From Chrysopilus asiliformis (Eukaryota > Arthropoda > Insecta > Diptera > Rhagionidae), in contig OZ035961.1 in assembly GCA_964034945.1 (NCBI GenBank), positions 88,926,124 through 88,990,123 of the forward strand: a stretch of DNA of 64,000 bases. The letters run 5' to 3'. The notes beneath the pieces are model-generated. The model was given only the letters and a program-made list of their open reading frames with translations. It had not been told where the DNA came from and did not search any database. Made by a program: the position numbers and the translations under genes. Shown here in pieces: positions 17,858-60,099 of the stretch (its first letter is position 1; every line of letters starts with the position of its first letter).

Positions 17858-18541
17858 TTAACCATAATATCCTCGTCTTCGGAAAAAGCGTCGTCTTCTG
17901 AATCCTCCGAACCCGCCGTAACCTCCGTATCCTCCATAACCTCCATAGCCCCCGTATCCACCGAATCTTCTAAATCCCCCGTAGCCCCCGTACCCACCGA
18001 ACCTTCTAAATCCCCCGTAGCCCCCGTAACCTCCGTAGCCCCCGTAACCTCCATAGCCCCCGTATCCGATTCCAATTGGGAAGAAAGTTTCCTCAGAATT
18101 CAAGTCTTTATCGTTTTCGCCTTCAGCAGCCTCCGAAGGACCTTCACCATCTCCATCTAACGAAGCGGCTTCTTCATTCCTGGACTCAACATCTTGAGGT
18201 TCTTTCTTAACTTCGCCGTCCACAAGTTGACCCTCAATCTTCGAATCAATTTCACCACTTTCGTGGCTCGGAACGGAAGCTGGGGGTACTTCAGCACTTG
18301 CACCTGCAATAATGATTTTTCCCCAATTAACCTTTTTACTAGTTAACACTATAATACCCATTAAAATTCTTACCTAATCCAACACCATTTGTAGCTTCTT
18401 CAGCATAGGCCACCGACGATGTTAACAGAAAACATCCGACTATTTAAAAAGAATGAAATAAATAAAAACAATTTATAAAAATTTTCCAGTCATCAACAAT
18501 AAGTAAATACATTATTTACCCAAAAACAAGTTTAACCTCAT
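17858..18541 (-). CDS. secreted YGG/FRRFGG-repeat protein (three exons)
   Basis: Minus-strand gene encoding 177 aa. Exons: 18541-18520 (22 nt, MRLNLFL plus one base), 18439-18374 (66 nt) and 18303-17858 (446 nt). Phases are 1 and 1, and the splice sites are GT-AG. The signal peptide is MRLNLFLVGCFLLTSSVAYA. A long acidic, Glu/Ser-rich linker ends with the hinge variant KDLNSEETF. About 85 residues of YGGYGG with FRRFGG insertions follow, and the protein closes with a strongly basic FRRRRFFRRRGYYG. The 22-nt first exon and second-exon layout match the neighbouring gene at 16,552-17,206, so the two are the closest pair. The acidic linker and basic tail could neutralise each other before processing, as in some pro-peptides (inference). 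TTTATT near 17,790 gives a minus-strand poly(A) signal. Confidence 0.78.
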
Positions 18542-24542: not shown

Positions 24543-25603
24543 AACATAACAAAAGCTATATTTGCCAATCTGGCAATTATTGAAAACCCGTATGGTGATT
24601 TAAGTGAACTGGAGCGCGTTCGCCGTTGCAAAATAGTCAGCTATAGTTGACTATTTGTGACTATCGGTCGTTCGTGAACGCCGTAGCTGACTACTTAGCT
24701 ACAGCTCTGGTCGTTCGTGGATGCCAATAGTCGACTACGGTAGTTGACTATTTCTGACTATGCTCGGTGAGTAGAGTTAGAAATAGTCAAGCGTAGCTAA
24801 CACACACATAGACAGTGTGTAAATTATGTTTCACACATAAATGTCAAAATTCCAGCTTGAGTTTAGTTTTTAGGAAAAGAAAAAGGAAAATGAACATAAA
24901 AATATTTACGCAGATGAAAATTAATAGCGATATGCTTTAAAAAATTGGAGCTTTTGTTCATTCTTCAGTGTGTGTGTGAGCTGTCAATCGAAAAGCAACT
25001 ACGACTATGACTATGGTCGTTCGTGGTGCACATGACTATAGTTGACTACGGCGAGCTATGACAGATTGACGTCATTAGCTATTGCTAGCTACGACTACGA
25101 CTATCAATGCGTCGACGAACGCGCTCCAGTTGTACCAAAATTACACTTTGAAGTCAAAGTTTCCAATGAGATTTTTGAAAATTTGTTCCAATCGGATTTT
25201 GATGTATGGAAGTTTTATGTAGAATCATATCCTAAATAACTTTTGTTCTTGCACTTTTTTGATAAGATGCACCGTTTTTGAGATATTCGCAAAAAACGAT
25301 TTCGTTCGTATGGGGGGTACCCCCCCTAATGGACCGTTTTCGCCCATTAACGAACTTAGCCTCGAATTTTACGAAAAACGGATCTGCGCAAAATTTCAAG
25401 GCTCTAGCTCAATCCGTGCGTCCGCAATCGAGTTCACAGACAGACGGACAGACGGACGGACGGACATGCGGAAATCAAAATCTTTTGTCATTCCTAACAC
25501 ACTGGTGTAATTCATTTTTGTGTGTGATGACGGGATCTTGGCGTTACAAACGGTAAGGCAAAGTTAGTATACCCTTTGGTATTCCATACCATACGGGTAT
25601 AAA
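24543..25603 (-). mobile_element. DINE-1-like element, family B, interrupted
   Basis: On the minus strand it starts TTTATACCCGTATGGTATGG and has the (GTCC)n core at about 25,438-25,466. It ends with the palindrome TTGCCAGATTGGCAA and AGCTTTTGTTATGTTT. It is split by a 525-bp MITE at 24,607-25,131. Confidence 0.75.
24607..25131. mobile_element. MITE with perfect terminal inverted repeats
   Basis: AACTGGAGCGCGTTCG at the left and CGAACGCGCTCCAGTT at the right are exact complements. The interior repeats the theme ACTATAGTTGACTA / TAGCTACGACTACGACTAT on both sides. No target duplication can be fixed, because the ends fall within a similar word of the host element. Confidence 0.7.
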
Positions 25604-26062
25604 AATTTCAGCGGTATTGTTCCTTACTTGGCACGTTGCCCTTAACCCACGTCAACATTAACAAATATTCTTTTGTTTTTGGGTAAGCTCCGTTAAAATT
25701 AAAAAAATATTCTTTTGTCAGATGTCGTCACGAAAGATAAAATATTTTCATTTGGATAGCAGTAATAGAATTGGTGATAGCTGTAAAAGTAACACTCAAG
25801 AAATATGAATAGAAGTCCTCTTTAAGTTTCTATTTTGGCCCCAACTTCCAAAAAAATTATTTTTTCCTTTTTAGTGCACTTTTAGATTGTACAATAAAAG
25901 AGAGCAAATTGTTTGTTTCTATTTTGGCACCAACTTCCAAAAAAAAATTATTTTTTCCTTTTTAGTGCATTTTTAAGTCGGTTTTTTTTACTTTTTTTTA
26001 AAAAGTTTTTTATTTTATAATTTTTAGTGACTTTTGGTATTATACATATTATATAGATATAT

Positions 26063-28150: not shown

Positions 28151-28810
28151 GAAACGTCGGAGAGAGGGGAAATTAAAATGGGACCAACTAGGGAGTGAAC
28201 TCTGTCATCCACCAACGTTTCAACAAAATCCATGCAACGGCACCCAAGTACTGCGTGAACATACAGATATTAAATAAATAAAGTTGGACCAAAACGAATT
28301 GATAACCTCCTCCTTTTTTGGAAGTCGGTTAAAAAACAACTTCCGTAAATCAGCAACAAATGTTATAAATAACAATATTTTCGAAGGCACAATCACCATT
28401 AGTTGGGTTTCTACAAGGAGAATCAACAAAAATATGGCGCCAAAAAGAACGAGTTCCTCAAAACCATATAGAAATCGACGAGAAAGTGAAATTTTCCGGT
28501 AATGATTCGCAAACAAAAGAGAAATTCATGGCAACAAATAGGAAATTTTCGAAAAATGAAAAATTTCCCTATTTTTGGGGAATCATTGCAGAAGAGTCTA
28601 CTATCTTGTAAATTCCTATTTGGATTTTTTGTTTCGTAAATTCCTATTTGGACTGTCTCATAAATTTCTATTTGGAAAACATATCCGGACATACTTTCCC
28701 GTTCAACTCAAAAGGATGCGAGTGTTTTTACAAATATAGGGAAAAAATCAGTCAAAATGAATCCCGAAATTGGCAAACAAAACATCCACATCAAGAACGC
28801 ATTTAAAAAA
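28151..28810. other. intergenic DNA with a repeat end
   Basis: GATAACCTCCTCCTTTTTTG plus GAAGTCGGTTAAAA at about 28,300-28,335 is a repeat-terminus-like sequence. Overlapping frames on both strands at 28,220-28,690 have no recognisable product. Confidence 0.35.
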
Positions 28811-29357
28811 ACATAACAAAAGCTATAATTGCCAATCTGGCAATCATTGGAGACCCGTATGGTGATATTCGTATCAAAATTCGAACAGTTATACCAAAAT
28901 TCCAATTTGAACTCAAACTTTCCAAAAAGATTTTTTAAAATTTATTCCAATCGGATTTTGATGTATGGGAGTTTTATGTAGAATCATATCCTAAATAACT
29001 TTTGTTCTTGGACTTTTTTGATAAGATGCACCGTTTTTGAGATATTCACAAAAAACGATTTCGTTCGTATGGGGCGTACCCCCCCTAATGGTCCATTTTT
29101 GCCCATTAACGAACTTAGCCTCGCATTTTACGAAAAACGGATCCACGCAAAATTTCAAGTCTCTAGCTCAATCCGTGCGCCCGCAATCCGCGCCACAGAC
29201 AGACAGACAGACAGACGGACGGACATGCAAAAATTAAATATTTTTATCATTCTAAACACACTGGTGTAATTAATTTTTTTGTGCGATGACGGGATCTTGG
29301 CGTTACAAACGGTAAGGCAAAGTTAATATACCCTTTTGTTTCACCATACGGGTATAA
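28811..29357 (-). mobile_element. DINE-1-like element, family B
   Basis: Complete copy: hairpin TTGCCAGATTGGCAA near 28,829, inner inverted repeat ACCCGTATGGTGA near 28,853, (GACA/GACG)n core at about 29,193-29,225, and the opposite terminus TCACCATACGGGTATAAA at 29,341-29,358. Confidence 0.8.
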
Positions 29358-29419
29358 AAAAACAGAAATAAATTTTTTATGGATAAACTGGGAAAAATCA
29401 AAACAAAAATTGATACCTA

Positions 29420-29629: not shown

Positions 29630-30596
29630 GGAAAAATAGGAAAACGATTTCCAAAAACATAAAAAAAAATCTAGAAAAAAAAGATCGAAAAAAGAGGTTG
29701 TGTTTTAGGGGTTGTCCATACGTCATGCTAACTTTAACCTTTTCAGACTTCTCCCCCACCCCCACCCCACTGCTCTCTCTGGTGTAATTTTTTTGGAATT
29801 TTTATACAAAGTTTAGTACCGCCGAAATTTTTATGGCTCACTAAGGCGGAATTTTTCGAAATTTTATCCGAAAGGAGGTAAACGAGAGGTGGGTAGGGGG
29901 TTGGTGTTTTAAAGCATTTGTTTTTGTGATGAAACCTGCCCGTTAGGCGGCTGAGAAATGTCGTGCAGGTATTTTCGTTGTCACTTATCACGAATCTGAT
30001 GTTAGAATTTCGCAATTCGAAACTGTAAGAATATCGAAAACATACTTTTTCCTAGTTTTCATCGGAGAAGAGGGTTTCAGGGTCGCTGCGCTCAATTCTG
30101 ATGTTGGAAATTCAATATTCGGAATGGAAGTCCTGAAGGCATAATTTAAAGAAAATAACATTTTCTCCATTTTTTGCTTTAACAGTTTTCATGTGTCTCT
30201 AACGGTTCTCGAGATATTTGAAAAGATATTATTGTTTACATATTTTTTCCGAAATTAAATATTGCAGAGAAAAGTTTTGTGTTGATCACAACTGATATTT
30301 TTTTTATTGTGTGCCTTTGCCACAATACATAATAAGATTAATTTCTCACAACATTTGATTAATTTCTCACAACATTTCACCGCAAAGTGCCTTACATTTA
30401 TAATTTAATTTTATCAAACGTCTCAAAGAAATTATTAAACAATGCTGAAGTGTTTTTCGATATATTCCTATATATTTTACTGGCAACACCAAAAACTGCA
30501 CAGTCAGAAATTCCTTATCTACTGTTTGTTAAAAAAAATGAATAAATTGAGTTTAGTGATTACATGAAAAATTGCTCGAATTTATGAGGGTTTCAG
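29630..30596. other. upstream region of the kenny-like gene, with repeat fragments
   Basis: Fragments of family C Helitron-like sequence occur at about 29,985-30,130 (ATCACGAATCTGATGTTAGAA) and 30,180-30,310 (TAACGGTTCTCGAGATATTT). No independent gene. The promoter of the gene starting at 30,624 must lie here or in the last few hundred bases. Confidence 0.4.
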
Positions 30597-30623
30597 TTGG
30601 AATTGTTTCAAGCTAACTGTGAG

Positions 30624-33600
30624 ATGTGTGACGAGAAATTATTTATTATTTTGGAGCCAAATAAGATGTCACAAAAAGATAAAAAAGATTCTGCCTCAAA
30701 GGGTGAAGATTCCCTTTCGGAAGATGATTTTTGGAAGGATTTACGCCGATTAGATGAGATGGAAAGAGTAAAGATCGGAATTTCAGCAGAAAAACCTTCA
30801 GCAAATTCCACCATTTTTGTTGATGATCTATTAATGGTACGGCATTTTCATTATTTGTGATTTAAAAAGTGTATAGAAAAGTTAAAGAAAATTGATAAAA
30901 CGTCGTTATATTACAGTCCGATGATATAAAGCCATTAAACCGAGTTTCATCGGTAAGCAGCAACGAAATCGACTTACGGAATTTGTCGAGCGATGTAGAC
31001 CATATTAAAGGTTTGTCGTATCATATTGTATCAAATTCTGATAACGACACTTTCGTTATCTTATTTTATTTTTACATTTGAACCATTGAAGAAACCTTAA
31101 AACGAACAAATCAGTCACTCGATCAATACATTCTGATAAATCGAGAATGGAAACAACATATGCTGATGAAACTGGAAAGCTTTACCGAAGCAATTGAAAA
31201 GGCAAGTTTTGACGTTTTATTAACCACAAAAATTACAAAATACAATAATATTTGTAAACTACTAACTTTTTTGTCAACATTTGTAGCTTAAATTCGAGAA
31301 CAATGGCTTAAGAGCTGGTAAGAAATGTGAAATTTTAGTTTATTAACAGAAATTTTTCAAAAAATGCTGCATTTAACCCCTGCAAACATTCAGTTTGCCT
31401 TCCCCAACCACACCCCCACCACCTCCACAATTTGAACTAATTCCTACTATGCCTTTTAAACCACTTAACCGAACTTCACACCATTTTTGCAATTTAGTTG
31501 GGGATTTTAGGCAGGGTGACTATACAACAATTCAGAATTTAAAAAAAAGTTGTCCCGGATTCTTTAATTGAAGTTTATATAGTTATCAACCACTAAAGAA
31601 ACGTTTAGTTAACACGTAACACCTACCCACCTTAAGCTGAAGGCTGCGCTTAATTATAATCTTTTTGCCGCGTCGCATTTCTTTAAAAATATTTTATCGT
31701 ACGTCCATATGTCTCAAACATTTTAGCCTACGGCGCATTTCGCTTTTTCGGTATTTAAACAATTTCAGTTGCATTTATTTATCAAACAAAACTTTAAAAA
31801 ACGTGGAACGGTTTAACCCCCGTCGCACACTTCAGCTAAGCTATGTGAGCGAGGCTAGCTATCGTTACATAGCTTAGCTGGGTTAGCTCACATCGTTGCA
31901 CACTTGAGCTAAACTACGCGGCGATATTTAAATAAATGTATGCCATCAGTTGTATGCAATTGGCACTTACACATTTATGTCCACAAAATACTACACTTTT
32001 GCAAACACTGATTCTACACTGTATAACGCCGAAAGTGTGTGTATGTGAGTGTCAGCGATGCCAGCGAAGTCGTTCGCGTAGTTGAGGCATAGTTAAACTA
32101 TAGTTAGGAATCGTAGGGCTTTTTCCGTGTACCTACGTTGGAGTAAAGATAACCGATATACTCTGGACGCGGTTTTTCTTTCTTTCCTATGCGTAAATTA
32201 CCAACAAAACACAACACATGTAAAACCTAGCCATGTTTTCTTACACCACCAACACATGCAATCTCCCGCTGTCGGAAAATTGCATGTGTTGGTGGTGTAT
32301 GAAAATATGGCTAGGTTTTACATGTGTTGTGTTTTGTTGGTAATTTACGCATAGGAAAGAAAGAAAAACCGCGTCCAGAGTATATCGGTTATCTTTACTC
32401 CAACGTAGGTACACGGAAAAAGCCCTACGATTCCTATCTAGGTAATCTATGGTTGAGGTCTGAACTACGCGAGCGAGATTAGTCCGCGTCGCCCATGACT
32501 GGCGACGTAGTTTCATAGTTCCACTGAAGTGTGCGGTCGCCAATGCAAATGCAAATGAAAGGATTTTACTTTCAGCGAGAAACTTAGCTCACGTAGTTGA
32601 GCTCGCTTAGCTGAAGTGTGCCACGGGATTAAATCATTGCGGTGCATTTCGTTTTAAAATATTCGCACCCTTAAATTGTTTAAATACCAATTTTGCTAAA
32701 GTTTGATATAAAAAGAAAATTTGTGATTCTTTAGTATGCACACCAAAAGCTTTTTGAAAAAAGTTCTGGACTCTAAATCTGATTGAAGATAGAAATTAAT
32801 AAGAATTTTTCGATCCTAAAAATTCAAACCGAACGAAACTCCTAAAAATTTTCTGATTTTTGGTTTGATTACAGCATTTGTTTTAAAAACTGGCTTGGTT
32901 TTGGTTCGGTGCGCCCATTTTTCAAAAATCTGGTTTATTTTTGGCTCGATTCGGCCATATTTTTATACCCGTATGGTGAAACGAAAGGGTATATTAGATT
33001 TGCCTTACCGTTTGTAACGCCAAGATCCCGCCATCACACAAAAAAATGAATTACACCAGTGTGTTTAGAATGATAAAAAAAAGTTGAATTTAGCATGTCC
33101 GTCTGTCCGTCCGTCCGTCTGTCCGTCCGTCTGTCCGTCCGTCTGTCCGTCTGTCTGTCGGTCCGTCGGTCCGTCTGTCCGTTCGTCTGTGGCGCGGATT
33201 GCGGTCGCACGGATTGAGCTACAGACTTGAAATTTTGCGTAGGTCTATTTTTCGTAAAATGCGAGGCCAAGTTCGTTCATGAGCAAAAATGGACTATTAG
33301 GGTACCCCCCATACGAACGAAAACGTTTTTCGCGAATATCTCGAAAACTGTGCATCTTATCAAAAAAGTGCAAGAACAAAAGTTATTTAGAATATGATTC
33401 TACATAAAACTCCCATACATCAAAATCCGATTGGAACAAGTTTTAAAAAAATCTTATTGGAAAATTTGAATTCAAATGAAATTTTGATACGCCGTTCAAT
33501 TAAATCACCATACGGGTTTTCAATAATTGCCAGATTGGCAATTATAGCTTTTGTTATGTTTTAAATTTGGTTTGGTTTTGGCTCAGTTCCGTTCAAACAA

Positions 33601-34829
33601 CCGGTTTGCATCTCTGGTAGGAATTAAAAATTTGTAGAAAAAAACCTAAGAATTTAAAAAGTAAAATTAATTTTGGTTGTTTTCCTAGATGTTTCCAATA
33701 AAGACCTTTTAATGAAATCTTTTACGAAAAAAAAATTAAAATCTTTTATTTGCAGCCAAAGTTGATTTAACCGTGAAATTAAATAAGCAGACGGAAATCG
33801 TTCAAAAACTATGCTTCCAAATGGGAAAAGTTCACCAACAGGCAAGTTCTTAGAATTAATTGAAAATAGCAGATGGATATTTTGTACTAGAATTAAATTT
33901 AATTTTTCTAAGCCATTGTTTATGTAACCTAGAAACTATAGAACCTCGTTACTTCGGTTTATGAACAGCGTTTCGGTTCTTGAACATAATTTCAATCCTT
34001 GATTTCTTACCTCCATAAGTGTTTTGGGTTATGAATACTAAGAACAGAACAACCTTCAAGAGCGAAAAAGGTTTATAAACCAAAGATTATCTGTAAAAAA
34101 AATTAAAACGAATATTTGTCATATTTTCTTACACTACTCTTGCATAAAACGTCTAATTTTTCATACCATTATTAAGCCTATTAACTTAAATTAAAAAATA
34201 TTTTTAAGTAAAAAAATCTTATCGTTATTTGAATTTTTTAAAATTATTTCTATAATTAAAAAATTTACATTAAACCATTTCCTAATCACTTTTTATTTTC
34301 AAAAACTTAAAAAGAAAATCCCTTGCAAGATTCTGCATTTTAAAACCACCGTTTATCATTTTAGCTCGGAATTGATGCACCAAGGAAACCAGAAAACATT
34401 TCTGTTGCCGAACACAACTTTTTAATGAATCAAATGAGAGCACAAGTTACAGAAGTAGCGCAAAATCTTGTCGGTCAACAGAAGCCAAACTATAATAAAC
34501 CCAGACAATTTAATGGACCTCCATTCAAAAAATTCGACCATGAAAAATCCGAGAGGTTCCAAAAACCCAATGAAGGTTTCTCAAAAGCTGGAGACGTGAA
34601 AATTTCAGCTGAAACGCAGAAGACAGAAAAGACAAGTATAAAAATCAACAAAACCAAAAAATGGAAGAATCCAAATCCGGATGCAAAGGGACCTGGAGAG
34701 ACTTCTGTCGAGAACAAATCGGAAATCCATAAACAATTCAAACAAAAGACAAAAACTAAACAACCGGAAGCAACCATTCAAACTTCAAAGGAAAATGTTA
34801 TTAACATTTGCATTAAAAATATTGAGTGA
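30624..34829 (+). CDS. truncated kenny/NEMO paralogue: coiled coil, no UBAN or zinc finger
   Basis: Six exons: 30624-30836, 30917-31010, 31092-31201, 31287-31317, 33756-33841 and 34365-34829. The product is 332 aa and phases 0,1,0,1,0 agree throughout. The start MCDEKLFIILEP parallels kenny's MSSEEESFVILG and gives a LIR-type F7-I-I-L10. A second canonical LIR, W37-K-D-L40, follows the acidic EDDF. Exon 3 (ETLKRTNQSLDQY...) parallels kenny exon 3 (DSLKNTNQAMRKY...). Exon 4 is 31 nt in both genes (LKFENNGLRA against LKNENEELRK). Exon 6 opens with AEHNFLMNQMRAQVTEV, matching kenny exon 6 AEHNTLMREMRHQLSEV. All five intron positions and phases are shared. After that motif, exon 6 reads on into about 115 residues of Lys/Gln/Asn-rich basic tail and stops. 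The UBAN and CCHC finger are absent. Introns 3 and 5 use GC donors (GCAAGT). AATAAA lies at 34,836-34,841. Inferred role: IKK-complex modulator or autophagy-linked decoy; a decaying duplicate is the alternative, though the frame is intact. Confidence 0.72.
31817..32628. mobile_element. piggyBac-like MITE, 812 bp, flanked by TTAA
   Basis: It lies in intron 4 of the kenny paralogue. The left end is TTAA|CCCCCGTCGCACACTTCAG (TTAA at 31,813-31,816). The right end is CTGAAGTGTGCCACGGGA|TTAA (TTAA at 32,629-32,632). C-rich ends directly bordered by TTAA are characteristic of piggyBac-type elements. The repeats continue as CTTCAGCTAAGC...GTGAGC. No transposase. A 332-bp near-perfect palindrome is nested inside. 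Confidence 0.7.
32105..32436. repeat. near-perfect palindrome, 158-bp arms, 16-bp loop
   Basis: The left arm 32,105-32,262 starts TAGGAATCGTAGGGCTTTTT. The right arm 32,279-32,436 is its complement with only a few mismatches (e.g. CCATGTTTTC against CCATATTTTC). The loop is 32,263-32,278. Transcribed as part of the 2.4-kb intron, it would fold into a long double-stranded RNA hairpin. It probably arose as a foldback transposon inside the piggyBac-like MITE. The overlapping open frames on both strands are mirror images and not genes. Confidence 0.85.
32961..33562 (+). mobile_element. DINE-1-like element, family B, with expanded core
   Basis: Begins TTTTATACCCGTATGGTGAA. The (GTCC/GTCT)n core at 33,098-33,190 is the longest in the window. 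It ends with TCACCATACGGGTTTTC, the hairpin TTGCCAGATTGGCAA and AGCTTTTGTTATGTTT. Located in intron 4 of the kenny paralogue. Confidence 0.85.
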
Positions 34830-34841
34830 AATCAAAATAAA

Positions 34842-37106
34842 GGTTTGTGAGGTGTATTTTATAACCATAAAACTATTTTCCCTTATTATTGCTAATCCAA
34901 AGATACTAACTGTATTTTGATGATTGAATTTAACTTTTTTCTGATTACCAATTACAAACAGTGTAAAACAATTATCAATTTTACTTATATTAAAATGTAT
35001 TTTAAAAAATTTGACAAACTTTGTTGACTTTATTAATCCAAACGACAAGAGTTTTCGCTCATTTCAAACTTCCCGCCTTTCATTTAGACCGAGTTTACAA
35101 ATGCACTGCTAATATTTTGAATTCAAAATCTTGATGTTTGAAGCTTGATATTAGAAACAAACGAAAAGAATCTCGGGACAACCAGTAAAATTAGGTTTCT
35201 ATTGAATGGATCAACTATTAGAATTTAAAATTCAAATAAGAAATTGGAATTATCTTCATCATACAAACCTGTTGTTTTTAAAAGCCTAAAAAGCTTTAAG
35301 GGGTCCACATCTTCATATTCACATTTTTTGTATAATTTCTTAGCACAGAATTTTTTGTATAATTTCTTAGCACTTTCTTGCAAAATTTCAGATAAAAAGT
35401 TAACAAAAAAAAATTGGTTCAAGTTTTCCTTTCTAAAAAAATTCAGCTGAAGATTCCAAAACCGATTGAAATATCATACAAAATTTCAAGTATTTTCCCG
35501 AAAATTTCACTAAAAATTTATAGAATATGGTTCTATGGAAAAGAAAACTATAATTTAAAAATTAAAAAGGATGAACTCCCTTAAAGCTTTTGATAAAAGC
35601 TAAATAACACAATTCCGTTCGTCACAAAATAGGTCGGGAATTCCCCAAAAATAATAAAAAATGTAAAAATAAAAAAATTCAACATTCTAAATTTATATCT
35701 GTCTCAGTCGCACCTCAATTAGTTGTACGATCGAAATCAAAAGGAAAATATCAAATATTTATTGCGGCTTGAACAAAGGTTTGTGGCTTGTTTTAAATTA
35801 GTTCAAAAATATTGAAAAAAATTTTATTGAACAATTCAAAGTGCTATAAGTGTAGAACACAAGGGCAAATTAAAATAATAAGAAAAAAAGAGATTTTTTT
35901 TTTGAGAATTTGTGTTGTGGACGTAGTTTTTCCTTGAACAATTTTTTTACGCGATATATAAATATTTCATAGCAAGTTCTGAACAATTTTTGATTACTAA
36001 TACAGGTGAGAATTTTTTAGTTTAATTCTTGTTGAAACTTTTCATTCAAAAAAAAAAAACTAAAAGATTTCTTTGTTTTTGTTTGAATATTTCTCCCTAC
36101 GAAAAATCAATCTCAGCTAAATAAAAATCCGAATTTTTTTCACAAAACGTAAAAGAATTTTTTCAGACTGCAAAATTAGGCGAAATTTTAATCACAGAAG
36201 ACAGAAATGTAACAGTAAATCACGGTTTTTCTGCATATCTAATTTTGAGCTTGTTTTAAGCTTGTATTTTATTAAGGATAAATTTGTATCTTCAATGTCC
36301 TTCTCTTTAAAGGGCATTTTTATAATGTAGTTTCAATAAATCTGCATTCAAGGTTCGAAGGGGAATCCCCTAATTGTGTGTATTTTATGGCCTTTTACTT
36401 ATATTCTATGCGCCAAATCGTCTCCTTTCTTCGAATATTGACTTCGAAAAGTCCATCTTCAAAAATGCACTGTTGGAATTTCTGTGTACCGTGAGGATTT
36501 TTTCATTTTCTTTTTAATGAGTTTTTTACTGATATTAATCCATTTCAGTTATTATAACAAAGAATCAAATTTTTAAAGCTTTTTTTTAGCTTTTTTTCTA
36601 GATTATAGGCCTTTTAACTCATGTAAAAGAGAAACTAAAGTGCGTCGTTGAGGTACCCTGACTTTGACAAATATATTTGATGGTCTAAATGGCACCTAAG
36701 GAAAAAAAAACTCGTAAATTGAAAAAGTATTCACAGTATGCCCCCCACACACGGTCTAAATTGGCGTGCTTGGTTTCATGCCATCACTAGTGTGTTGCTG
36801 TCTGTAACTGCGCACATCTTCTTTTTGCTCGAACAACAACGCAACTAGTGTGAACGAGATGCAGTGATGTGGTGAAAAGAGACGTTATAAGTTTCGTCAT
36901 TCGCTCTTGTAGCCGAGAAGTTTCTTCTCATCCAGCAGCTGATGAAGTCGTTTTTGTTATTATTTGTCATTAGAATTTCGTTTTATTGCATCGGATTGGA
37001 TTGTACTTTTTTGTAATTAATTGTTTTGCATAGTTGGGATTGTCATATCGATATTCATTGCGTAGCAGCTACAGTTAGCAACCCGAATCGGTTTACGCTA
37101 GTCTAA
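34842..37106. other. intergenic region between the two kenny-type genes
   Basis: 2.3 kb, AT-rich, no gene. It includes a short tandem duplication (TTGTATAATTTCTTAGCAC twice near 35,328-35,370), a palindromic kappaB-like site (36,360-36,370) and the proximal upstream region of kenny. Confidence 0.5.
36360..36370. promoter_or_regulatory. palindromic kappaB-like site
   Basis: GGGGAATCCCC fits the Rel/NF-kappaB consensus GGGRNNYYCC. It sits about 740 bp upstream of the predicted kenny start site and 1.5 kb downstream of the paralogue. If Relish binds here, the IMD pathway would feed back on its own scaffold (inference). One 10-11-mer can occur by chance, and GGGGAATTCCCC-like text is also present in an unrelated hAT element. 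Confidence 0.35.
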
Positions 37107-37153: not shown

Positions 37154-40100
37154 ATGTCTTCAGAAGAGGAATCTTTCGTGATTTTGGGTTCAACTCCTAC
37201 CCCCTCGATGGAAAACTACACGAGCCTGGAAGGACCAATCACTAACGAAATCGCAAAACCAAAAGATTCCGATGTCGCTGCCAAAATGGAAGTATCCACT
37301 CCAATTTCCAATGATAATTTCAGCATCGTCAGCGAGTCGGCAGCAATGGGTAATTCACCGTCTTTAGAAAATGATTCAGCCGTGGACGCATTGAAATCAG
37401 GAACGATTAGCCAGGAGGAAATACGACTTCGCGATCAACCTTTGACGGTGGCGGCAGATGGCCCCACTAAAACGGAGGAGGCTCCGAAAAGCGACAGCAG
37501 CTTCATGTCCACTTCGATTCATGAAAATTTCGCCGCTAGCTTCTTGCTTGGCGACATCACTAGCAGCGACGTTCTTAAGGTAAATTCACGGCAAATTGCG
37601 AAATCAATAGTTTTGTAATTTCCCCGAAATCTTTCACGATCATTGTCTAATTTTAGATATCATGCGGAACAGAAATGATATCCAGTTATTATGTCGCAAT
37701 TTCTCATTTCATCTTCAACCTGTCCTTAGGATTCCTATTCTACCCATCCACTTGATTGAGTTTCCTTTCAAATCCTAGAAAAAAACATTTTATATTTCCC
37801 CAAAATTCAAGAACTGCTCCAAATTCTACCATGTTTATGATTCAAATTGGGCTCTTAAAATAAAATACGCCAAATATTTTCGTTTCAGGCAAATGTTTTC
37901 TCGCAGTTTCCAAGTTTGTGCTCCTCTGAGACTAGCGCCACAGATATCATCAAATTGCAGAATTTTATGTGCGAATATGTCGAGCTTAAAGGTAATAGCA
38001 GAAATTTTTAATATTGCCATCACCCCCTCCTTCCCCTAAATGTGTGTTGTATCTTATGTATAGTCGCTTTTTAACAAAAACTGAAGAATATGCGTTTAAT
38101 ATTTGACTTTTATTTATTTATTTATTTATTTACATACAGTCATTACAGAGCAACCTCATAGACATTTTAATCGTTAAACAAAATATATATAATCATTGTA
38201 AGAGCAATTGATTCTTTAATGCACTTGACGAGCAGTTGAAATCAATGAAATTGAAATATTTGTTAAACACATGACACATTAACGACAACGGTGCGTTTTT
38301 CCCATAGGATGTCCTTGCGAATTTAACGTAAAAGAAATTAAAGTTTCTTGTATTCCTCGGTTTAGTGTTAATGTCTAATTCTAGCAACAAATTAGGAGCA
38401 TCAACTTCATTTTTTTATTAAAAATGAAAATTTTTTCATTTTTTTATTTTTTTTTTATTTAAAGGTCCTTAGAAATCTAGATCTAATTTCCACATATTTT
38501 GTTTACATTTCAGATAGCCTAAAGAACACAAATCAGGCGATGCGAAAATACTTTCTAACGATACAAAAATGGCAAAACGAAACGAAAACGTATAAGGATG
38601 AACAATCCAAGCAAATGAAGGAATGCACCGAAATGATAGCCAAGGTATCTTCTAATCATATAAGCAATGATTTTATTATATTTTTCTGGATAATCACTTT
38701 CCTAAGGCCCGTTTCCATTACTATCTACTGAACGGCAAGTAGATGAAAAGACAGTAGGTCAGTCATCTACACGTATTCGGCACTTGCCAGACAATAATAT
38801 GACATTCTGTTCAAAAGTTAACTCGAAAAATTCCTTTATTTAGTATAAAGTGGCAACCGGAAAAAAAAATTATTTTACAGCAAGTGCAAAACTCACACAC
38901 AGTTGCCGAGCTGAATGTTAAGACTAGTTGATGAGATGCGGAGGAGGCTCCGAAAAGTTGCTGTCGGTTTTCGGAGTCTCCTCCGCATTAGTGGGGCCAT
39001 TTGTTCTAACTGTTTTGAGCAACTAAACCGATTTCCAGCTTCGCAGCAAGTAAACGCACACATAATCCCGACAAATACTATGAGACAAATCGCGTATAAC
39101 GACGAGCTACTTGCCGGCCAGTAGACAGCCAAGAAAACGGGCTTTTTAAAAATCGCAATAAAGTTTTCCGCGATTTCCTCCGAAAACTCGCGTTTTCGGT
39201 AGTCTTAAGCTAGCATCAGACGAGCACACAAAATGTTAACACGTGTGATGACTGACGTAATTTTGACGTCACAAAATTGTAACACCAGTTAACACCGTCT
39301 GATAACTTAAATTGTGACAGAATTTTTGTTTACACACTGTGTGATAACTGTGTTACGACAATTTTTTTGACGTGTGTTAAACGAATTTTGCCTCCGTCTG
39401 ATAACCCTGTGTAAAACGTGGTATGTGTTATGACATTTTTCGGTCTGTGTTAAGACTGTGTGTAAATGTCCCAATGTGTGAAGTGGCATGAATTCGTGCC
39501 ATTTCACACATACTGTGTTATAGCTAATATCTCAAAAACGGTGCATCTTATCAAAAAAGTGCAAGAACAAAAGTTGTTTAGGATATTATTCTACATAAAA
39601 CTCCCATACATCAAAATCCGATTCGGAGAATTTTAAAAAAATCTTATTGAAAAGTTTGACTTCAAAGTGGAATTTTGATACAACTGTTCGCTGTTCGATT
39701 AAACTTCAAATAATGCCATATCACCAAACGGGTTTTCAATTATAGATTTTGTTATGTTTCTATCTGCGACTTCACCAATTGTTAGCAAATTATCGAATTG
39801 ACCGACCGACATCCGTAAGAAATTCCGATACAATTCGGGTTCTTCAGAGCGCAATTCCACCATCAATTTGGCAAAGAAACCCTCCTTCTCGCGACGCGAC
39901 ACCCAATCCTTTGTCCAACAACTGCGCTTTCGAGCCATTGACTCGTCGTCGTCGTCGTCGTCGTCACTGCTTTCCAAAATATAGGCTGCCAAAATCCCCA
40001 TATCCATCATCTCCTCATATTTCCTTTTTGACATTATAATTTTATTTTATTTTTCTTCACAAATTGAAAATACCGCACAATTGCTTGTCAAAATTGCTTG

Positions 40101-43100
40101 AGAAAAATACACAAAATGTCAGAGAGCTATCACACCGTCTGATAGCAAATCAGTGTGTCAGACGATTTCGACTGCTGTCACACGTCTTTCATCATTACAC
40201 CTTTTGAGGCTTTTCACTCCGTCTGATAACTACTCAATCTGCGTTACACAGTGTGTAATTGTGTGACAAAATTTCGTGTGAAGACTAGCGACGTTAACAC
40301 GTTTTGGGACAAAAATCCGATTGTGTGGAAAAAAATTTCACACCGTCTGATAACAACACATTTCAAGTGTTAGGACGAGTAGTGTCAGATGTGTGTGAAA
40401 TGTGTGTTGAGTTTTTTTCGTGACGTCAGTCATCACACGTGTTAAGGTTTTGTGTGCTCGTCTGATGCTAGCTTTATGTATGACAGAAATTAGAGACAAT
40501 TAAGTTTCCTACATTTTTATCCCGTATTAGAACTCTGTATCTCAACCTGTTATCGAAATACACGGTTATTTCGAAAATTTCAGTCTGCGATTATCTCAGA
40601 AACTAACTGTGTTTTGGTAGTTATAAATATGAACGAATTGAAGAGAATAGCATTCCCGACAATTTTATCTTTTATCATTATTCGCTATCTTTTACCGTTA
40701 TCGAGATATTATCATTAAAAGTCGAAAAATGGATTTTTGCGAATTGCTTTCAAACTAACGGTTTTTCGAAGAAAAAAAAACACTAAAATGCAATTAAAAG
40801 TATTAAATTTTCTACATTTTTGCATTTTACCGTAAATTGATATCTTTTACCGTTATCGAGATATTTCAGTTTTTATGAAAAAATCATATTTTTATATAAG
40901 GTAATATTTTATTCGTCGGGCTATATTCTAAATTGCGTAAGACCGTAGATTTTGTATAAGAAAGTCATGTGCTGTTCACATCAGATTTATTTTATTTCTT
41001 TTTACTGTGGTTTTACTTCAATGAAAATATTTGTGTAAAATAAAATCTAATGATAATTTATTTTAAATTTCAGCTAAAAAACGAAAACGAGGAGCTGAGA
41101 AAAGGTACGTTTTTGAAAAAATTAACAAAAAAAAAATTGTTCCAAACTATGTTGAGTGACGAAACTAAAATTTATTCAAAACAAAACGAAGTTTAAGTCT
41201 TAGACTTCGTTTCCATTGAAGAAAACATGCAAAAGTTTTGCTTCATTTTGCAAGTAAAAATACTTATTGCGCATAAATTCAGATTCCGCTTTTTCTTTCA
41301 AAAAATCTGTCCTTTCTCCGTTTTGCTGTGGAGAATATTACGCTATGTGATGACACAACATTTCGAAATTCAATCAATGAATCATGCAGAGTAATTTTTT
41401 TTTCTCATGAATTCGATTTTAATATTCATTTGAATGCAATTTTATCAATTCTGTTTATTGTGGGTTTGTTTACAAACTTATCATCGGATAGTATTTCTGT
41501 TTACTGCTTACGGAATTATTCACCCGAATGACATTTATTCAATTAATTGGGGGAATCACAAAAAAATGCGACATGCAAAATGGTTTATTCGAATAAAATG
41601 AATCTCAAAACAATGAAAATTAATAAATCTTGCGATATCATAATTATTTTCAACGTGATAAGGCATTTTTTATAATCCAAACTGGCTTTTTTTTATCATA
41701 ATTTCGCAATTTTTTGTAGTACTACTTTTTTCAACATTTGAATAAATCTACATGAGCAATAGATTTTAACAAAAAAATGTTTCAATACAGAAATATTAAA
41801 TAAGCACCAGATAATTGAATTTCGAGTTTTTTTTAACTGATCATCACTTGAATTTCTATTTGTGGGAAATATTATCTTATCAGGGATTCATTGGGCTTCT
41901 GGGTTATCTTCTCAATTAAAGATAACAACTACCAGATAATAAGAGTTTGTTTGTATACAACTTTTATCGAGTGCAGATAAAATTTTGATGATTTATAGTA
42001 AATTTCAGTGAAACATTTTATGGACTCTCTGTTCACAGAGTAGCGATTATACGGAGGGGTCGAAATTGTTTCCAAGTAGTTTTTCTTCAAAAACATTGGA
42101 GTCTGAAGTTGGAATTATTACATATGGTTTATGGAGAATCAGCTTACTTGGTCGTATTGCGAAGGCTCAATTTTCGCCTTTGGCTTTAGAAAATTGGTAA
42201 AAATAATTACCGTTTGATGTTAACGATCAGTCTAGATTGCTATCATGTCGTCTGCTGTTGATGTGTTGCAACGTAAAAAAACCTTACAAATGTTGTGATT
42301 TATCTATGGTTCGCAATCCATGTAAAAACTGTAGGTGCAAAGCAGAGAAGAAATTGTTATGAAACCTCAACTGAGGAGGCCCAGGTTCTTCGAGAACTGT
42401 AGCGCCAAGGATGATATGTAGAACGAATTCACACTCAATAATATTGAACGAAAATCAGATTTCTTTGCATGCTTGTCGTTATCCGATTCATCGCTGCCGT
42501 TCCACAGAATTAGACATCTCATCCACAAGCATGCACAAAACGATCGAAGAGAAGAAAACAATCAACAATGCGTTAAAGTTCTGGAAACAGGCACGCAAAT
42601 TATGTTGGATTTTCGTTGTATTCTGAGACTTTACGATTTCTGTGGAGAAATTGTTTTATTGTTTCAGATTTAGCTGAAATCAATTTTTTTCAAAAATTCG
42701 TAGCTCGCAATCTCCTTATTGTAGATGCATTTATTTGTAGATGGTCTTTATATCAAAATCTTTAGCTTATATTGTTTGAAAGAATTTTCTCATAAAATTT
42801 TCCAGGATATAATTGAAATCATAAGCTTTTTGCCTAAGCTTTTCACAAAAAAAAATGTTTGAAAATGTTTTCCATATAAATTGTCCTGGATTTAATTAAA
42901 ATCCTAAGCTTTTGATAGAAATATTGTTTGTTTGAAAAAATTTTCTAGGGGAGGAAAAAGTTATAGGAAATCCCCCAGAAAACCCTTTTCCTTGCCAGTT
43001 TTCTAGCGCAATACGAATTTTCTTCTTTAATGTAAGGAGAGGGCTTACATACAGATATATTTTGCGTTTTTTAAATGTTTTTTAACTGTACCTCTTAGTA

Positions 43101-46100
43101 ATTTTAAATATGCGCATTTTAAACGAAATTTACTCACAACTCTTCTCTTTTCAGAACTCAACACTCGCATTGAACAGATCCAATTAACCGAGAGTTTGAT
43201 GAAAAAAGAAAATCAAGATTTGGTCCAAGTTGTTTCCGAAAAATCATCTTTAGTTAACAATCTAAGCACACAGATTGAGAAATTGGAGCGACAACATGTA
43301 AGATTTGTGTTTCATAGAAATAAAAACCAAAATTTTAAAAGATAAAATTCGGCACCTTAAAAGTGTGACGTATTTTATGTAGAATACATCAAAATTTCAG
43401 TTGCCTGAGGGGGGGGGGGGGGGGGATTTCTGCAGTAGTGTGACGGCAGTACTAAAATTCACACAAAAACATAACAAAAGCTATAATTGCCAATCTGGCA
43501 ATCATTGGAGACCCGTATGGTGATATTCGTATCAAAATTCGAACAGTTATACCAAAATTCCACTTTGAAGTCAAACTTTCCAATAAGATTTTTTAAAATT
43601 TATTCCAATCGGATTTTGATGTATGGGACTTTTATGTAGAATCATATCCTAAATAACTTTTGTTCTTGGACTTTTTTGATAAGATGCACCGTTTTTGAGA
43701 TATTCACAAAAAACGATTTCGTTCGTATGGGGGGTACCCCCCCTAATGGTCCATTTTTGCCCATTAACGAACTTAGCCTCACATTTTACGAAAAACGGAT
43801 CCACGCAAAATTTCAAGTCTCTAGCTCAATCCGTGCGCCCGCAATCCGCGCCACAGACAGACGGACGGACGGACAGACGGACGGACATGCAAAAATTAAA
43901 TATTTTTATCATTCTAAACACACTGGTGTAATTAATTTTTTTGTGAGATGACGGGATCTTGGCGTTACAAACGGTAAGGCAAAGTTAATATACCCTTTGG
44001 TTTCACCATACGGGTATAAAAATGTTTGATGAGAAGGGTGGGATATAGCAAGCCTAAAAGTAGCGTGACGTATTTTATGAGCAGCTTCTTATTAGTTTTT
44101 TCTTTCTTATAATCATTTTATCAGATCATGAATGACCTCTTTTTCTTATGAAAAAATTCAGAAAAAAATTGCTTTTGCTTTCAACAATCAAATTGTAATC
44201 ATTCATAAAGATTTGTTGGATTTTTCCAAATAATAATGTTGAAAAAAAAACTTGGATTTCAGATGTCATTCGAGTACATCAAGCGCGAAAAGGAAGCCGG
44301 AGATGGGAAAAATTCAACAGAACGTGAATACATTACAATGGCTGAACACAACACTTTGATGCGAGAAATGAGACATCAATTGAGTGAAGTCACCGCAAAG
44401 AATTTGGAATTTGAAGATATGGTAAAGTGGATTCTATGATTTTTGCAAAAAAAAAAAAAGTTTTAACAGACAAAAAAATTTTATTGAAAATTCCAGCGAA
44501 AGCAATACATCGATGAAATAACCTGTCTGAAAGTTAATTTAGTGTCAGCAGAGGAGCTTCTAAAGAAGGCTCAGGCAGATATTAAATCTCTGCAGTCCAA
44601 GGATACGGAAAAGAGTGGATTATTTGAGAATTACGAAAAGGATCGTCAAGCAATGAAAAATGAGATCGATTTGCTGAGAACTCAATTGGAAATCTATCGC
44701 AAGGACTTTGAAATGGAACGAAACGGACGACAGGAATTGAACCGCGAGAAAGATCAACTGACGACTGATTTGAAAATGCTTCAAAGACGCAATCAGCAGC
44801 TCATTGAGGAAGCACAGGAAAGGTTGGTATTTATTTTATTTTTTCTAAATTTTTTTCGGTTGTGGACTTAAGTATGGGCCACAACAATCAGTTTTCCATC
44901 ATTTTTTTTTGGCGAAACTGATTGGTGTGAACGTAAAATCAACCATGAAAAAATTTGTGGACGGATCAGTTTTTCTAACAAACTGGCACCCAACTGATTG
45001 GTGTGAATGTATCGCATCAGAACAGAACCAAATTTTATTATACCCGTATGGTGAAACCAAAGGGTATATTAACTTTGCCTTACCGTTTGTAACGCCAAGA
45101 TCCCGTCATCGCACACAAAAATGAATTACACCAGTGTGTTTAAAATGATAAAAAAAATTGAATTTTGCATGTCCGTCCGTCCGTCTGTCTGTCTGTCTGT
45201 CCGTCTGTCTGTGGCGCGGATTGCGGGCGCACGGATTGAGCTAGAGACTTGAAAGTTTGCACAGATTCGTTTTTCGTAAAATGTGAGGCTAAGTTCGTTA
45301 ATGGGCAAAAATGGACCATTAGGGGGGGTACCCCCCATACGAACGAAAACGTTTTTTGCGAATATTTAAAAAACGGTACATCCTATCAAAAAAGTCTAAG
45401 AACAAAAGTTATTTAGAATATGATTCTACATAAAACTCCCATACATCAAAATCCGATTGGAACAAGTTTTAAAAAAATCTTATTGGAAAATTTGAATTCA
45501 AATGAAATTTTGATACGCCGTTCAATTAAATCACCATACGGGTTTTCAATAATTGCCAGATTGGCAATTATAGCTTTTGTTATGTTTTTTTGACCTTAAT
45601 GCAATAATAATACTTAAATTAGCTCTCTCTTTAATATCCACCCGCATTTTTTTTTAACTCTGCAATCAAAATGAATAGAAACTTATCACAAAAATTGTCA
45701 GCTGCAATTGATAAATTTGAACGCTAATTAGATGTAAAAAATTGATGGGAAACTGAATCAGTTGCAACTGATGGAAAACTGATTGGTGTGGTCCCTACTT
45801 ATAGGAGAAACTCAGTTGCTCGTCCCTACTTATAGGAGAGACTCAGTTGCTCAAGTGCAAACAACAACCTTTAATTTTTGTACCTTTTTTGAACATTTTT
45901 ATACCCGTATGGTGAAACCAAAGGGTATATTAGATTTGCCTTACCGTTTGTAACGCCAAGATCCCGTCATCACACACAAAAATGAATTACACCAGTGTGT
46001 TTAGAATGATAAAAATAATTAATTTTTGCATGTCCGTCCGTCCGTCCGTCTGTCTGTCCGTCCGTCTGTCCGTCTGTCTGTCCGTCTGTGGCGCGGATTG

Positions 46101-46813
46101 CGGGCGCACGGATTAAGTTAGAGACTAGAAATTTTGCACAGCTCCGTTTCTCGTAAAATGCAAGGCTAAGTTCGTTAATGGGCAAAAATGGACCATTAGG
46201 GGGGGTACCCCCCATACGAACGAAAACGTTTTTTGCGAATATCTCAAAAACGATGCATCTTATCAAAAAAGTCCAAGAACAAAAGTTATTTAGGATATGA
46301 TTCTACACAAAACTCCCATACATCAAAATCCGATTGGAATAAATTTTAAAAATCTTATTGGAAAGTTTGACTTCAAAGTGGAATTTGGGTACAATTGTTC
46401 GAATTTTGATACGAATATCACCATACGGGTCTTCAATGATTGCCAGATTGGCAATTATAGCTTTTGTTATGTTTAAATGTTATTTTTGCATTTATTTTAG
46501 ATTAAATCAAAGCACCAAGATAGCTAATTCAACATCCCGAATAAGTCCAGCATTAAGAGGAACTCCATCTCCGCCAAGAGTTGTAAGTCACACACTTTTG
46601 ACAATTTAAACCCCTAACAAATTAAACATGAAAAACGCTTTTAAAAAAAAATTTTTTGAAATTAAAACTCGTAATTAATAAAAAAAAAATTAGTTTCCAC
46701 AGGAAGAACAAGTCTACAGCCGAAGCACTTACATCTGCCCGATATGTAATAAAACATTTTTAAATGTTTATTTGCTGGAGCATCATGTCCAAGTTTGTCT
46801 GGACAAAGCATAG
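37154..46813 (+). CDS. key: IKK-gamma/NEMO homologue (kenny), IMD pathway scaffold
   Basis: Nine exons: 37154-37579, 37889-37991, 38514-38644, 41074-41104, 43155-43297, 44263-44421, 44497-44822, 46501-46582 and 46703-46813. All introns are GT-AG, phases close exactly and the product is 503 aa. Kenny is the regulatory subunit of the IKK complex; it binds polyubiquitin and enables Relish activation in antibacterial immunity. Seen in the sequence: an N-terminal LIR (EEESFVIL, F8-V-I-L11), a Ser/Thr/acidic-rich stretch to about residue 142, and coiled coil from about 177 to 345. A UBAN motif spans about 385-433 (QLEIYRKDFEMERNGRQEL, with D401-F402 at the ubiquitin-contact position). A C-terminal zinc finger C479-X2-C482-X12-H495-X3-C499 is the NEMO CCHC spacing. 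AATAAA at 47,003. Introns 3, 5 and 7 are swollen by transposons. The tandem upstream paralogue shares the first five intron positions. Confidence 0.93.
38707..39142. mobile_element. MITE in kenny intron 3
   Basis: The terminal inverted repeats are about 35 bp: GCCCGTTTCCATTACTATCT and the complement of GCCCGTTTTCTTGGCTGTCT. Each is followed by ACTG..CGGCAAGTAG. Inside is a compact hairpin at 38,936-38,988. No target duplication is clear. Confidence 0.6.
38936..38988. repeat. short strong hairpin inside the MITE
   Basis: ATGCGGAGGAGGCTCCGAAA pairs with TTTCGGAGTCTCCTCCGCAT (21-bp arms, 11-nt loop). It is GC-rich against its surroundings and of a size that could be processed like a small-RNA precursor if transcribed in the intron. 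Confidence 0.55.
39529..39758 (+). mobile_element. 3' half of a DINE-like family B element, nested
   Basis: Starts mid-element (ATCTCAAAAACGGTGCATCT) and ends with CACCAAACGGGTTTTCAATT, a partly lost hairpin and TTTTGTTATGTTT. It lies inside the Harbinger remnant and truncates its transposase frame. Confidence 0.7.
39759..40034 (-). pseudogene. N-terminal fragment of a PIF/Harbinger transposase
   Basis: Reads MSKRKYEEMMDMGILAAYIL, a poly-Asp run (GAC/GAT repeats), then RKRSCWTKDWVSRREKEGFF and LRSEEPELYRNFLRMSVGQF. This is the start typical of HARBI1-like nucleases (Trp-rich WxxxW, EELYxxFLRM). The DDE catalytic part is missing, because the frame runs into the nested DINE-like sequence after about 92 residues. 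Non-functional. Confidence 0.75.
43409..43426 (+). repeat. poly-G tract in kenny intron 5
   Basis: An uninterrupted run of about 17 G residues, able to form a G-quadruplex, 110 bp after exon 5. Length polymorphism is likely. Confidence 0.6.
43469..44022 (-). mobile_element. DINE-1-like element family B in kenny intron 5
   Basis: Full copy with hairpin TTGCCAGATTGGCAA (about 43,488), (GACG/GACA)n core at about 43,855-43,887 and terminus CACCATACGGGTATAAA at 44,005-44,021. Very similar to the copy at 28,811-29,357. Confidence 0.85.
45036..45587 (+). mobile_element. DINE-1-like element family B in kenny intron 7 (first)
   Basis: Begins TTATACCCGTATGGTGAAAC, core (GTCC/GTCT)n at 45,171-45,212, ends with inner repeat CACCATACGGGTTTTC, hairpin and AGCTTTTGTTATGTTT. 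The 5' portion is almost identical to the next copy 300 bp downstream. Confidence 0.85.
45897..46474 (+). mobile_element. DINE-1-like element family B in kenny intron 7 (second)
   Basis: Same structure as the preceding copy, with the core at 46,031-46,087. Its last base is only about 26 bp before kenny exon 8 (46,501), so the element abuts the polypyrimidine tract and may supply or border the branch-point region. Confidence 0.85.
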
Positions 46814-58929: not shown

Positions 58930-59531
58930 TGGTGTAAACTTCAAGTCCTGGAATGGCCGGGATCATGCCTGTAGCTTGTTGAGAGGAGGGAGCTAGGGTG
59001 GTGAAGCCTCCCCCCTTTCTTCCGCCTCGAAATTTATAAAACAAACATAAGAAAAACTACAGTTGCCAGGAACCAATCGTCGAATACTCTATATGATGAC
59101 AGACAACATGTTTATTTGAAAAAATCCATTTTTATAGGAGAGGGAGAAAGTAGTGCTCGGATTGGATTTTGATGTATGGAACGGTTATGTATATTCGAAA
59201 CTGATTTTATCTTTATAAATTCTGCATTACGGCTCACCGTTTTCGAGAGAATTGCAGAAAACGGTTTCGATTATATGCGGAAGAAAGCAAGAAATGGTCC
59301 GATTTTGTTCGTTTAAGAATATAGCCTTGCTATTTACGAGAAGCAATTGTAAAAAATTTCAAGTCTCTAGCTCAATTCTTTCGAAAGTTATGGTGTTCAC
59401 GGACAGACAGACGGACGGACGTCAAAATCTTTTTTCATCCCTAACACCCTGGTGTAGTTCATTTTTGTGTCCGATGATTGATTCGATGCGTTACAAACAG
59501 TATACTAAATCTAATATACTTCTATATGATA

Positions 59532-60099
59532 TCGGGTCTTTCAATAAGGACATAACAATTTTGTATTTAAATAAAACACAGAATAATTGAGATATCGGGC
59601 TGAAATTTATTCCAGGTGTAGTTACATTTAAGTATGAAATTCGATGTCGTTCATATGGCCACCGCGAGCACGTTTGCACTGATTGATTCTTTAGAGCCAA
59701 TTTTCCACCACTGTTCCACACATATCGGCCGGAACTTTGGCAATTTCGCGTTCGATATTGTTCCTCTAATGTTGTTGGCTTGTTGGCATAAACCAACGAC
59801 TTAACATAACCCCATAAAAAGAAATCCAACGGCGTTAAATCCAACGGTGTTAAATCGCATGAGCGAGGTGGCCATTCGACCGGACCATTTCTCGAGATTA
59901 CACGATTACCGAACTTCTCCTTCAATAGATCAATTGTTTGACCAGCTGTGTGGCATTGCTCGTTCGTGAACTTCACCATGATAAAAATGTAAACCTTGAC
60001 TGACGTTTTAGCATTGCCAGATCATAAAAACAGTTTTAGGGTGCTTTTTTATTATTATTAAAATACAAAATTGTTATGTCCTTATTGAAAGACCCTTTA
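59532..60099 (-). mobile_element. internally deleted Tc1/mariner element
   Basis: Terminal inverted repeats of about 35 bp are exact: GGGTCTTTCAATAAGGACAT continues AACAATTTTGTATTT on the left, with the complement ending at 60,095. TA flanks both sides. Length 568 bp against over 1.2 kb for an intact relative, so roughly half is gone. It carries a transposase remnant on the minus strand. Confidence 0.85.
59640..59979 (-). pseudogene. deleted mariner-type transposase
   Basis: Starts at a genuine ATG (59,979): MVKFTNEQ, the N-terminal few residues, joined directly to CHTAGQTIDLLKEKFGNRVI and WPPRSCDLTPLDFFLWGYVK-like sequence, which in this family follows the second catalytic Asp and holds the third acidic-residue region. 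The DNA-binding half and most of the catalytic core are missing. A 15-bp tandem duplication repeats DLTPL. A frameshift after TTLEE separates the last 40 or so residues (another frame reads a C terminus like RARGGHMNDIEFHT). Non-functional. Confidence 0.8.

Follow-up and report, generated by a model that had tools for sequence, protein, structure and literature searches.

A tandem duplicate of kenny without UBAN and zinc finger in the fly Chrysopilus asiliformis

The duplicate gene and its locus

The stretch of DNA analysed here, referred to below as the window, comprises 64,000 nt from Chrysopilus asiliformis (Rhagionidae; assembly GCA_964034945.1, contig OZ035961.1, positions 88,926,124-88,990,123 of the forward strand). 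Upstream of an intact kenny gene, which encodes IKK-gamma/NEMO, and on the same strand, the window carries a second, strongly diverged gene of the kenny type (hereafter the duplicate) at 30624-34829. A previous sequence-only reading had described it as a six-exon open frame of 332 residues, and the splicing check confirmed this, as the six exons join in frame into 332 codons without a stop. The features of the locus, in window coordinates, are as follows.

30593..30627, + strand: initiator (Inr) TCAGTT with A+1 at 30595, and AGATGT of the downstream promoter element (DPE) type at +28 to +33 (30622-30627), overlapping the start codon of the duplicate
30624..30836, + strand: duplicate exon 1, MCDEKLFIIL with F7xxL10; the remainder diverged from kenny
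30917..31010, + strand: duplicate exon 2, in which the FPSLC block of kenny is not retained
31092..31201, + strand: duplicate exon 3, stretch of kinase-binding-type coiled coil (LKRTNQSL); GC donor AAG/GCAAGT
31287..31317, + strand: duplicate exon 4, 31 nt, LKFENNGLRA
33756..33841, + strand: duplicate exon 5; GC donor CAG/GCAAGT
34365..34829, + strand: duplicate exon 6, the last, with ENISVAEHNFLMNQMRAQVTEV followed by a lysine-rich tail and a stop where kenny splices into the UBAN exon
34836..34841, + strand: AATAAA, a polyadenylation-type signal starting 7 nt past the stop of the duplicate
37154..46813, + strand: kenny (IKK-gamma/NEMO), paralogue of the duplicate, nine coding exons; LC3-interacting region (LIR) ESFVIL, CC2-LZ/UBAN and a C-terminal zinc finger

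All five introns of the duplicate have GT/GC-AG splice dinucleotides, with GC donors at introns 3 and 5 where GT had been implied before. The tail comprises 118 residues, with 24 lysines and two arginines against 14 aspartates or glutamates. A foldback element, or one resembling a miniature inverted-repeat transposable element, lies in intron 4 (31819-32627); its core is an inverted repeat of 168 nt whose arms, 4 nt apart, are 97% complementary, and outer inverted arms of 43 nt (77%) enclose it.

Common descent with kenny

The two genes have the same architecture over their first six exons. Introns 1 to 5 are in phases 0, 1, 0, 1 and 0 in both and interrupt the alignment at matching places, in agreement with the sequence-only reading. 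The lengths of exons 1 to 6 in the duplicate and kenny, respectively, are 213/426, 94/103, 110/131, 31/31, 86/143 and 465/159 nt, and the deficit of 21 nt in exon 3 of the duplicate corresponds to exactly seven codons, or one heptad. Exon 4, previously called identical, is so in length and not in sequence (LKFENNGLRA in the duplicate, LKNENEELRK in kenny). Even the shared length is partly built in, because kenny exon 4 (41074-41104) was sought as a 31-nt exon and was chosen by likeness from nine open 31-nt candidates followed by GT; independent support comes from the flanking exons, which demand a length of 3n+1, and from other kenny proteins, which have LRNEN.ELR at this place. The FPSLC block of kenny exon 2 is missing from the duplicate, a point on which the previous description has to be corrected.

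The similarity of the products was compared with chance in several ways. BLASTP of the duplicate against kenny, run on a one-sequence database with composition correction off, gave an expect value (E) of 3e-13, the alignment of 199 columns being 27% identical and containing 47 gaps. A profile built from the N-terminal part of 99 kenny proteins, with the kenny of the window left out, scored 21.9 bits for the whole duplicate, 23.4 bits for residues 1-213 and 3.9 bits for the C-terminal piece, the best of 4000 shuffles (2000 global and 2000 in blocks of ten) reaching 12.0 bits; the match spans residues 82-212. In the exon-by-exon comparison with 1000 shuffles each, similarity to kenny was clear for residues 1-213 (score 143, best shuffle 79), exon 3 (54, best shuffle 45) and the start of exon 6 (69, best shuffle 45), and suggestive for exon 4 (24, shuffle mean 12.7, best 25) and exon 5 (34, shuffle mean 21.4, best 39). 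It was not significant for the whole of exon 1 (31, shuffle mean 27), exon 2 (19, shuffle mean 16.7) and the C-terminal tail (34, shuffle mean 32). Within exon 1, the opening ten residues nevertheless match the start of kenny when the comparison is anchored at M1 (3 of 200000 permutations were as good), although the serine of ESFVIL is a leucine in the duplicate; an aromatic residue at position 7 with L, I or V at position 10 arose in 2394 of the 200000 permutations (1.2%) when considered alone.

A second profile, A1, has five rows, one from the duplicate and four from kenny proteins. Against the Protein Data Bank (PDB) it matched the N-terminal coil of optineurin (5eof, E 0.016) and NEMO (3brv, E 0.49); these matches say little because unrelated coils such as that of HEXIM1 score alike (0.021). 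NCBIfam returned only an irrelevant weak match. The similarity to NEMO N-terminal regions, on which the sequence-only reading depended, is thus seen with the kenny-specific profile but not with Pfam or solved structures. Taken with the gene structure, the evidence places the duplicate in the IKK-gamma/NEMO (kenny) family by common descent.

Loss of the ubiquitin-binding parts

Pfam did not find CC2-LZ/UBAN (PF16516) in the duplicate, nor was a C-terminal zinc finger found in it, and the interval 34830-37078 holds no counterpart or relic of kenny exons 7-9, which encode the UBAN and the finger, at E 1. Pfam, the comparison of the two genes and the search for downstream relics all agree with the earlier proposal of a tandem kenny paralogue without UBAN and zinc finger. 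Kenny mutants with an altered UBAN surface (F281; R285/R288/E289) are described as no longer accumulating M1 chains (PMC6462001). In the kenny of the window, three of the four positions altered in these fly Kenny mutants are unchanged (F402, R406 and R409), and the fourth has Q410 in place of E.

Retained coil and LIR core

In human NEMO, the N-terminal kinase-binding domain is described as containing the high-affinity IKK2 site (PMC9035715). In the duplicate, 16 of the 38 columns conserved at 70% or more among flies are kept, compared with 14 of the 81 other columns (Fisher p 0.006), and a periodicity of 3.5 residues is retained over residues 88-150 (p 0.007). At the N-terminus, FxxL occurs within the first 70 residues of 114 of 120 proteins, nearly all of them kennys, and is preceded by serine in all 114. 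For Drosophila Kenny, F7 and L10 are reported to be needed for Atg8a binding in vitro, and binding of ird5 to be independent of the LIR (PMC5668318).

Evidence for an intact gene

Exon 6 of the duplicate is open over 154 codons; a first-order Markov model of this exon gave 17 sequences in 20000 that were open as well. In neutral simulations that started from the first 332 codons of kenny and allowed substitutions only (1000 each), 0.6% of the frames survived 0.1 substitutions per site without a stop, and 0.2 or more closed every one of them. Over 119 hand-aligned codons, the duplicate and kenny are 56, 71 and 45% identical at codon positions 1, 2 and 3 (28, 34 and 27% for random pairing), and the ratio of nonsynonymous to synonymous substitution rates (dN/dS) is 0.39 with NG86 and 0.42 with LWL85. 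The sequence-only reading had named a value near 1 as evidence against its proposal; the value of about 0.4 lies away from it, with the limit that it joins both branches over alignable blocks only and sets no bound on the duplicate's own branch.

The Inr, with the DPE at exactly the right spacing, lies 29 nt before the ATG, and the two form the sole TCAGTY plus RGWYVT pair on either strand of the window under the consensus of these elements; a looser consensus gives three pairs from 228 Inr-type hexamers. Part of the DPE match comes more easily because the element overlaps the ATG. No kappa-B-like pattern was found in the approximately 0.65 kb upstream of either gene. Apart from the GC/GT dinucleotide, which was left unscored, the GC donors of introns 3 and 5 are nearly ideal: they outscore all the other donors among the 13 of both genes, and of the 1809 GC dinucleotides on the window's + strand only 4 are on a par with them. 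The donors in use range from 0.98 to 8.87; donor 2 of the duplicate is weak (0.98), and the kenny donors are also low (1.3-5.7). GC is described as replacing GT at under 1% of donors, with the remainder of the site nearer consensus, and as having been linked to alternative splicing (PMC2490688). Two GC donors in one gene are unusual and may point to regulated splicing. Altogether, the view that the duplicate is a separate, intact and strongly diverged gene is well supported.

Age and distribution

Of 121 proteins, the kenny of the window is the one most similar to the duplicate (score 143, with 121 for the runner-up), as is seen most plainly in the exon-6 block (69, with 47 for the runner-up). 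This closest likeness suggests duplication within this lineage followed by fast change, and the duplicate looks lineage-specific. The protein search with the duplicate alone gave no match at E 1 or better among 1370 candidates by shared words; searches of this kind cover only relatives that have five-residue words in common with the query and do not prove that the gene is absent elsewhere. The kenny of the window matched 107 proteins, listed with CC2-LZ, when the 7995 candidates sharing most words were scored. Profile A1 found 28 proteins at E 0.1 or better among 6248 candidates, and PF16516 is present in 26 of the 28. The other two, P0113 (261 aa) and P0120 (235 aa), were considered as orthologues of the duplicate and rejected, as they read as fragments of ordinary kenny. 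In viral contigs, profile A1 gave 59 pattern matches, none of which was confirmed. No kenny/NEMO duplicate in insects was found in the literature, as judged by titles and the openings of abstracts.

Neighbouring kenny and other features of the window

The kenny product has 503 or 506 residues, depending on the last acceptor. Its best BLASTP match is 46% identical (P0001), and the highest identity among the 29 rows of a kenny tree is 50% over 465 columns; in this tree, a supported clade of Bradysia, Pseudolycoriella and P0036 excludes it. Intron 3 of kenny holds a hairpin with a 22-bp stem at 38935-38989, with a minimum free energy of -46.5 kcal/mol over 111 nt (z -4.8; none of 200 shuffles as low). 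The 3' arm lies inside a 42-nt stretch with 90% complementarity to kenny exon 1 (37458-37499); the 5' arm contains a 19-nt exact sense copy of 37473-37491. Sequence of kenny's own exon has apparently been copied in inverted orientation into the intron, and the result is possibly a young self-targeting small-RNA hairpin. The same intron has a 115-codon open frame with an acidic run (39699-40046, - strand), without a Pfam match at E 0.1, which looks transposase-like by eye.

A dispersed repeat with CCCGTATGGTGA ends and runs of GTCCGTCTGTC is found in the introns of both genes and nearby, in copies 80-91% alike and with weaker pieces elsewhere:

32957-33562, 45032-45588 and 45895-46474, with a part at 39523-39681: dispersed repeat copies
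43466-44023, 28808-29360 and 25132-25606, - strand: dispersed repeat copies

Two further open frames, both on the - strand, have no Pfam match at E 0.1. One, of 176 codons (59491-60021), has mariner-like wording (CDLTPLDFFLWGYVKSLVY); the other, of 171 codons (17858-18373), has a GGYGGYGGYGG-rich end and, by eye, a cuticle- or silk-like composition. No tRNA was found in the window by ARAGORN in its bacterial setting, and Rfam gave no match.

A possible ubiquitin-blind IKK subunit

A tandem duplication would have copied either exons 1-6 of kenny, its 5' half, or the entire gene, whose 3' exons were then lost later. The outcome is a gene in its own right, equipped with a promoter and a polyadenylation signal, in which the splice into the UBAN exon was lost and a lysine-rich tail took its place. 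The retained coil of the kinase-binding type would enable the product to form pairs with Kenny or with the IKK kinase of the ird5 type. If the coil does bind, the loss of the UBAN would place such IKK complexes beyond recruitment to M1/K63 ubiquitin chains; the kept FIIL core might pass them to Atg8, and the net outcome would be damped signalling in the immune deficiency (IMD) pathway. Gene structure, common descent, open frame and the loss of the ubiquitin-binding parts are read directly from the DNA, and a ubiquitin-blind IKK subunit is the most economical reading of them, with the binding and all later steps inferred. That the duplicate is such a subunit, and hence a brake, we propose tentatively, at somewhat short of an even chance. 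The stronger form of this proposal appears unlikely, namely a dedicated, separately promoted dominant-negative IKK-gamma of a fly lineage that would hold IKK off ubiquitin platforms and send it constitutively to autophagy through its FIIL core, which lacks the serine with a possible regulatory role in the motif of Kenny itself. The lysine-rich tail might accept ubiquitin or contact nucleic acid or membrane.

Three other readings fare poorly. Coiled coils inflate similarity, but a chance resemblance of an unrelated coiled-coil coding sequence is very unlikely given the intron positions and phases in common, the profile score above all 4000 shuffles and the neighbouring kenny as the top match among 121 proteins. 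A recently dead, decaying pseudogene is improbable: the weak donor 2, the rarity of GC donors, exons 1 and 2 that can hardly be aligned to kenny and the lack of an orthologue in the protein searches would fit it, whereas the frame has neither stop nor frameshift, all five introns keep GT/GC-AG, a predicted promoter and AATAAA are present and changes are in excess at third codon positions. We consider it similarly improbable that these exons are an alternative 5' half spliced to the UBAN exon of kenny, giving a kenny isoform with a second N-terminus and no separate gene. The upstream position on the same strand, the equal intron phases and the phase-0 start of kenny exon 7 would allow this arrangement, but kenny's own exon 1 intervenes, the frame ends in a stop with AATAAA 7 nt beyond, and the 12 GT and 12 GC dinucleotides of exon 6 all have donor scores below 0 (best -0.71), compared with 0.98 to 8.87 for the donors in use.

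The chief rival holds that the duplicate is functional but no longer acts on the IKK complex, having taken up another partner or role, for instance with a different IKK-type kinase such as the TBK1/IKK-epsilon homologue or as a basic scaffold outside IMD; we regard it as rather unlikely, though a serious contender. It would account for the large divergence with an intact frame, the lysine-rich tail and the lost FPSLC block, and it draws on human NEMO without exon 5, which is described as staying associated with IKKi, earlier work cited in the same source having found impaired association (PMC8920334). Against it, the conserved kenny positions K102, L105, N109, L140, E143, N144 and L147 are kept. 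Several observations that count against a ubiquitin-blind subunit have to be set beside this. Pfam finds no family in the duplicate, and NEMO (PF11577) is undetected, which also suits a new partner; in the kenny of the window, the same search gives 72.8 bits for CC2-LZ (PF16516) and 19.5 for NEMO, under the cut-off of 23.2. Likewise, the PDB search with the duplicate alone returned no NEMO or optineurin chain at E 10, whereas such chains were matched by the kenny of the window, mainly via the UBAN region. Of the 28 fly columns conserved at 80% or more, 14 are kept and 14 changed, so that kinase binding may be lost, and residues 150-213 have no heptad periodicity (p 0.22), nor does their kenny counterpart (p 0.38). 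No protein with the architecture of the duplicate was found in the searches, which therefore provide no cross-species evidence of selection. Finally, F7 and L10 are kept but preceded by K-L, with leucine in place of the serine, and KLFIIL fails the xLIR pattern (defined in PMC5119064) at position 2 and satisfies only the looser WxxL form, which weakens the idea of an autophagy adaptor.

Comparison with known systems

The duplicate resembles Kenny/IKK-gamma/NEMO (Drosophila key, CG16910) in the position and phase of the first six exons, the FxxL core at 7-10, the kinase-binding-type coil and the AEHN..LM..MR block. It differs in having no CC2-LZ/UBAN, zinc finger or FPSLC block, in the leucine for serine before FxxL, in one heptad less in exon 3 and in its lysine-rich tail. 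Optineurin also has a NEMO-family coiled coil, and its N-terminal coil is weakly matched by the mixed profile A1 (E 0.016); unlike the duplicate, which alone does not match it, optineurin has a UBAN, as well as a zinc finger and an LIR of another kind. Pirk and other IMD brakes are unrelated proteins acting at the receptor-Imd level and share with the duplicate only the proposed outcome, damped IMD signalling. Human NEMO-delta-ex5, as described in PMC8920334, is likewise a NEMO form minus a segment, in which the association with kinases and the signalling output are altered, but it is a splice form of a single gene with another segment gone, whereas the duplicate is a separate, diverged gene without the whole ubiquitin-binding half.

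Significance

Kenny is a single protein that links the binding of kinases to ubiquitin sensing and to autophagy, and a natural copy that splits these activities would make it possible to ask which part sets the tone of IMD signalling. If the duplicate is a ubiquitin-blind IKK subunit, it would illustrate at the genomic level how a signalling scaffold becomes its own antagonist by loss of the sensor; if it has instead taken a new partner, it would be an example of a NEMO coil repurposed.

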